A DNA stretch of 64,000 nucleotides from Desulfobacterales bacterium (lineage in GTDB: Bacteria > Desulfobacterota > Desulfobacteria > Desulfobacterales > CAFBRK01): assembly GCA_021737185.1 (NCBI GenBank), contig JAIPEL010000001.1:1-64000 (forward strand). Direction: 5' to 3'. The position numbers and the translations under genes were made by a program. The number at the start of each line of letters is the position of its first letter. Within the stretch, counting starts at the first letter, position 1. Shown piece after piece: positions 32,005 through 33,012 of this stretch. The notes under the pieces were generated by a model, which saw only the letters and a list, made by a program, of their open reading frames with translations, was not told the DNA's origin and did not search any database.

Positions 32005-32443
32005 GACAGGTTCCTTTTGAAAAGAGAGAAGTTCAACTTGATGATTCCCTGTTGCTCGCAATAGGGATACCACATCATTCCCTCTCCCCTGGCGGGAGAG
32101 GGTCAGGGTGAGGGGGTAAAACCAGATCCCGCTTTGATACCCTGCAGCTTGCAGCAGGGAGAGTCATTAGGGCGTTTCAACCGGGCGCAGTATTTGAGGA
32201 AACCGATTCTACCCCGTGGCGGATGCATTGTCAAAAACACGGAGACAAAAATGGCTCCGACGGCCGTGGCTTTGACAATCCGGCGACAATAAAGGATAAT
32301 ACCGCTGCCTTCTCGACGGTATTCAGGTTTCGCCTGCCGCGGAACGCGACAGGAGAGAGCCCGAGCAAATCCCGGCTCTATTGCGCATAGGCATGAAAAA
32401 TTTACTAATGGGTACTTTACGCACCAGACATCAGCACCGGTAA

Positions 32444-32660
32444 GGAGGAGGCCAAAAGATTTTTTTTGCGAGCTGCAGACCGAGGCTGAATCGCCATCGC
32501 GACGGCACTAAATCCACACCAGCAGTTCATAGGCAGGCCGACAACCGCAGTGGGTGCAGCGTAGCAACGAGTCGTGCCTATTCTGAAATGATTGAAGCGG
32601 ACAGACTCCGGTAAGGCACCGGAGGGTTCAGCTCGCAAAAAAAATCTTTTGGCCTCCTCC
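32444..32660. repeat. 217-bp element with perfect 32-bp inverted repeats (ggaggaggccaaaagattttttttgcgagctg) around a 153-bp core
   Basis: 32444-32475 is the exact reverse complement of 32629-32660; core has a ctccggt-aaggc-accggag hairpin. Confidence 0.9.
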
Positions 32661-32721
32661 TCGGCACCAACTCGTGTCGGGTGTGTAGGTTACTCGTTAG
32701 TAACGGCTCCGGGAGTGAAAA

Positions 32722-33012
32722 ATGGGCGAACCGCACGAGGGAAACATGGAGCTGACTAACGGCTTTTCCGCGGTGCACCACTGGCTTCAGCTAAACGGGC
32801 AGGTCGAGTTGAGCACTCAGCGGGGGCTGCGCTTCTCCGCCAAAGCCACCGAGACCTTCCGGGGACTGCGAAAAGGAGAAAAGGTGATCCGCTTCTACCT
32901 GGGCACCCGGGAGCTGGCCCGCGCATATGACTGCTGCTGGGGCCACCTGACCAACTGCAGCGGGGGTTCCATCGCCGGCTACGTAAAGCCTCTGGATCAT
33001 GTGGTGATCTAA
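32722..33012 (+). CDS. Hypothetical small protein (start 32722 or 32746)
   Basis: MELTNGFSAVHHWLQLNGQVELSTQRGLRFSAKATETFRGLRKGEKVIRFYLGTRELARAYDCCWGHLTNCSGGSIAGYVKPLDHVVI; SD gaggg before ATG 32746. Confidence 0.6.
   Translation: MGEPHEGNMELTNGFSAVHHWLQLNGQVELSTQRGLRFSAKATETFRGLRKGEKVIRFYLGTRELARAYDCCWGHLTNCSGGSIAGYVKPLDHVVI

Follow-up and report, generated by a model that had tools for sequence, protein, structure and literature searches.

A multicopy, MITE-like nested palindrome with near-perfect inner arms and a core found in both orientations in Desulfobacterales

The closest described counterparts of the repeat reported here are bacterial MITEs (IS630-type MITEs and Correia-like elements), the REP, REPIN and BIME elements, and the correction of quasipalindromes by template switching. 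With the MITEs it shares short length, absence of coding sequence and of a gene of its own, multiple intergenic copies, terminal inverted repeats and TA at the outer ends. It differs from them in being built of two nested palindromes, in inner arms that are perfect while drifting in sequence, in an invertible core, in interchangeable fillings, and in that no partner transposase was found. REP-like elements, too, are imperfect palindromes that occur in large numbers outside genes and fold into hairpins, but the present element is far longer, and its ends, TATAGC/TTACTAA, lack the GTAG/GTGG head that belongs to the REP definition (PMC2817692). Template switching between inverted repeats has both arm homogenisation and spacer inversion among its described outcomes (PMC8604942), and would account jointly for the two properties described below. 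However, the spacer inversions quoted in that work have arms of ~10-16 bp around spacers only a few bases long, whereas here arms of ~32 bp flank a spacer of ~150 bp in repeated copies. We read the element as a novel form of an established class of repeats, MITE-like and nested, in preference to an RNA gene linked to the adjacent ORF.

The window is the whole 64,000-nucleotide stretch that was analysed; the parts of the element and the adjoining ORF are given on its + strand. Inverted-repeat detection identified two arms of 33 nt, 100% complementary, at positions 32443-32475 and 32629-32661, with a 153-nt core between them (32476-32628). The original prediction described a 217-bp element with perfect 32-bp arms around a 153-bp core; the arms proved real and one base longer, and the 217-bp palindrome is also real, but its ends do not lie at 32444 and 32660, as an imperfect palindrome extends outward from the perfect arms to TTACTAATGGG (32402) and CGTTAGTAA (32703). 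About 2e-13 perfect 33-bp inverted repeats within ~250 bp would be expected in 64 kb (64000 x 250 / 4^33, our own estimate), so that none is expected by chance. The structure is a two-layer hairpin, in which the 217-bp palindrome forms the middle of a composite of ~300 bp. The left outer arm (32402-32442), which recurs at contigs C10, C71, C64, C45 and C110, pairs in the fold with the right outer arm (32662-32703), which also recurs at other loci. Both outer boundaries carry TA, at 32403-32404 and 32701-32702, as a putative target dinucleotide; the earlier statement that no target-site duplication was obvious referred to the inner boundaries. Upstream, another inverted repeat (32227-32279; 16 nt, 88%, loop 21) lies between the element and a cyclic-nucleotide-binding gene, and a small hairpin, CCCTCTCCCCTGGCGGGAGAGGGTCAGGGTGAGGGGG, at 32078-32115 upstream of that gene gives a weak, sub-threshold match to whalefall-1 RNA.

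The assembly to which the window belongs (G000, 4.5 Mb in 201 contigs) was searched at the DNA level. The 217-bp part was complete at seven loci (C98, which is the window, C110, C175, C3, C82, C159 and C134) and partial in at least five further places (C64, C121, C34, C8 and C27). The genome-wide comparison proposed in the original prediction thus finds a multicopy element, not a single copy. A second subfamily (type 2), made up of C82, C159 and C134, is 74-80% identical to the first (type 1), and its outer palindrome is not clear. Conversely, a 72-bp palindrome at C71 possesses both outer ends but lacks the 217-bp part; short outer palindromes resembling it were found at C10, C178 and C45. 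The outer-arm ends in this genome read CTAAYGRG and are bounded by TA.

The ORFs adjoining the element were listed for 25 copies and are unrelated from locus to locus. For the 96-aa orphan ORF next to the window copy (32722-33012), Pfam and NCBIfam gave no match, and the ORF was found neither in the flanks of any other copy nor in the 1.55 Mb that were checked of G001, a genome from a different genus of the same family. As the neighbours differ between copies, the proposed link between the element and this ORF is abandoned, and the ORF is judged not to be part of the element. One half copy in the window's own genome (L013, C64:35717-35808) lies directly 5' of a start codon, with AGGAGGAATCG just before the ATG; judged by eye, the gene downstream is presumably a Lon-type protease.

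The G001 genome is 5.7 Mb in size, and the survey of arm pairs covered 1.55 Mb of it. A covariance model built from the seven complete G000 copies detected at least five copies of the same length in G001, and a DNA search identified ~10 full composites of 284-294 bp with the same plan, together with several truncated copies and many short palindromes. The outer-arm motif CGGAACRKAWTTMTGRMAAYYGCTATA had 329 matches in this genome versus 0 for the reversed control. The outer-arm ends in G001 are TAGCRRTT, again bounded by TA, and the candidate terminal sequences of the elements are TATAGCRRTTGYCA or CTAAYGRGTA. In the surveyed DNA, arms could be matched into 50 palindromes, 75-430 bp long, which enclose the 217-bp part, short loops, or one of at least three unrelated fillings. 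The midpoint fell inside an ORF of at least 200 aa in just three of the 50, although such ORFs make up 77% of the DNA surveyed. The reading of the element as showing MITE-like mobility is thus supported by copies that are multiple, palindromic, non-coding and intergenic, and by the same architecture in another genus.

Particular fillings and breakpoints were also recorded in G001. At C133, C169, C216 and C255 (L142, L144, L151 and L153), the same outer palindrome holds unrelated fillings: one type consists of ATCGGT/ACCGAT iterons, another of a hairpin (CTCTGCGACTCTGCGG / TTTGCATTTCGC), and another is 175 bp long. The half copies at C133:67394, C133:76125, C344:37073 and C255:35943, which have kept the right outer arm, share a common start, TTTGCAGTGAAA, close to where the inner arm ends, and this suggests a preferred breakpoint.

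Every full copy has the left inner arm, with changes that co-vary, and symmetry is kept while the arm sequence varies freely. In type 1, the left and right arms differ on average by 0.8% within a copy and by 19% between copies, and the changes come as matched pairs; the contrast is weaker in type 2 (3% versus 4%) and in G001 (6% versus 10%). As the arms are kept perfect during drift, their perfection is no evidence of recent insertion, and the claim that it implies recent mobility does not hold. The window copy (C98) and C110 agree in their arms: with both copies read the same way, the outer arms are 90 and 93% identical and the inner ones 100%. Their cores are 96% identical when one is reverse-complemented and 24% identical otherwise. 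The G001 copies C169:103573 and C133:35102 likewise have a core inverted with respect to their outer arms, and the copies L226 and L232 of the more distant genome G112 have opposite core orientations. Both orientations are therefore present across three genera, and the 'recombination site' proposed originally is borne out in the one sense that the core inverts between its arms, though not in its link to the ORF. Arms that match within a copy but differ between copies, together with flipped cores, are the pattern that arm homogenisation and spacer inversion leave behind. By analogy with the described cases, template switching would be the mechanism of both homogenisation and flips; ordinary recombination between the arms is another route by which the flips might arise.

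Perfect inverted repeats around a segment seen in both orientations in three genera are also what a site-specific invertible switch, operated by a recombinase and controlling neighbouring genes, would present. A fixed recombinase site, however, would not leave the arm sequence free to change with its symmetry kept, and the copies have unrelated ORFs beside them, which makes such a switch highly improbable.

The inversions count against the proposal of a structured non-coding RNA family, in which the long stem would serve as a transcript end or scaffold, as a stranded RNA would be destroyed by core flips. The folded 300-nt stretch is very stable (z = -9.9 versus shuffles), and the 17 copies compared all keep a 5-bp core helix, GGCAC/GTGCC, but for a single A-A cell; this helix appears compensated in other families (GGCGC/GCGCC in G083, GCCCC/GGGGC in G112). 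However, the core without its arms folds like dinucleotide shuffles, with a mean z of 0.0 and +0.27 on the two strands over the 17 copies, and the co-variation of the stem is symmetrical and accounted for by arm homogenisation. Rfam searches gave no family match for the window element (only sub-threshold chance matches) or in eight relatives, and a tRNA search found none. A coding core was considered as well: type 2 and most G001 copies share an open frame (RRH...A[DE]RLR), but inspection by eye showed stops in this frame in C98, C110, C175 and C3. In view of unrelated neighbours and with no core folding signal, Rfam match or conserved frame, the structured RNA of the original prediction is unsupported and is considered very unlikely.

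The element is probably a non-autonomous, MITE-like nested palindrome, the movement of which is deduced from its copies, with inner arms that have been homogenised and a core that can invert. The imperfect outer arms (CTAAYGRG in G000 and TAGCRRTT in G001) would be the terminal repeats recognised by a transposase supplied in trans, and the 33-bp inner arms with the 150-bp core would be a conserved filling. Between moves, the long hairpin would stall replication and the polymerase may switch template between the inner arms, rewriting one from the other; the observed outcome is arms that are perfect yet drift between copies, and a core that flips occasionally. The short outer palindromes would be internal deletions across the hairpin, and the junction of one empty palindrome in G001 (C155:98262) is consistent with loss of the DNA between TGGA repeats. 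The truncated halves may have the same origin. Several points count against this reading. One-armed copies are very common (53 single arms against the 50 pairs in the 1.55 Mb of G001, some of the singles being pairs with a diverged partner), homology between the G000 and G001 outer arms is not obvious, three G000 copies have no clear outer palindrome, the contrast in arm divergence varies between subfamilies, and this reading does not account for the conservation of the core between genera.

Some of these points would be expected if two independent elements were involved: REP-like outer palindromes that were there beforehand, and a 217-bp element with 33-bp ends that enters their loops in either orientation. 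Some insertion sequences behave in this way; REP sequences are known targets of insertion sequences (PMC1525189). Outer palindromes indeed exist alone and with unrelated fillings, the same core lies within different outer arms in the two genomes, and the type 2 copies carry the inner element with no recognisable outer palindrome. Independent insertions would not readily produce C98 and C110, which share outer and inner arms and differ by a core flip. Some empty palindromes retain a stub of an inner arm, as expected from deletion of filled ones, and a target duplication within the outer palindrome was not seen. We therefore regard two independent elements as unlikely, though less so than either the switch or the RNA.

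In addition to being short, non-coding and multicopy, with outer arms in the position of terminal inverted repeats, the element is flanked by TA on both sides at C98, at C71 and at most G001 copies, although the TA is inseparable from the palindrome ends. For TA-bounded terminal repeats an IS630-like enzyme is the first guess. No IS630-type gene (PF13358) was found in either G000 or G001, and this partner was rejected. RAYT-type genes are represented in the two genomes by 16 Y1_Tnp matches, none of which is flanked by these arms, whereas RAYT genes are reported always to be flanked by their REPs (PMC2817692); a RAYT partner was likewise rejected. No arm pair surrounds a transposase in the 1.55 Mb of the 5.7-Mb G001 genome that were surveyed. 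The half copies were also considered as ends of a larger transposon; this was rejected, as the only candidate pair in the G001 DNA surveyed, with arms 3-5 kb apart, encloses ordinary sugar-nucleotide genes. The mover has perhaps been lost, or is perhaps encoded in DNA beyond that searched.

A second covariance model, built from 17 copies, detected elements of 213-225 bp with near-perfect arms in the genomes G067, G112, G294 and G083, and the first, from seven copies, had also picked up G192. Owing to the long stem, both strands score 40-70 bits with these models; the stem alone is thus no proof of descent, and the distant matches are graded as probable only. By overall identity the cores of the elements from distant families are near shuffle level. 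Matches to short core motifs, however, beat nearly all of 260 shuffles in G083, G294, G192 and G112, and for the most part their offset and strand are correct; they include GACGGCAC...GTGCC, in which the changes in G083 and G112 look compensatory. The elements of these four genomes, from three further families of the order, are therefore probable homologues. That of G067 is a possible homologue and was not accepted as an established one, as it has the same length and similar arms, yet its core is no closer to the present one than shuffled sequence is. The outer arms around the elements of G112, of G294 and of one G067 locus (L238) visibly resemble those of G001. At another G067 locus (L231), two different near-perfect-armed elements of ~215 bp lie ~150 bp apart (1501-1713 and 1862-2077). 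Fifteen exact core-motif matches in GTDB genomes were judged to be due to chance by profile score (at most 15 bits), and BLAST of plasmids and phages with the element gave no match.

A wider and more tentative proposal, to which we give somewhat less than an even chance, is that of a superfamily widespread in the order, whose members have an outer palindrome in common while the palindromic modules inside it are interchangeable (G001 has at least four kinds), with inner arms continually re-perfected and cores inverted. The element's own hairpin would then drive its evolution, and the conserved core would be a putative recognition site for a mobilising protein.

For studies of similar repeats, a practical caution is that arm perfection is not a sign of recent insertion. 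In many natural copies, and over genus-level time, the family records how arms are homogenised and cores inverted at long hairpins. Identifying the enzyme that would move it would show how large nested palindromes, which are normally unstable in bacteria, spread and persist.
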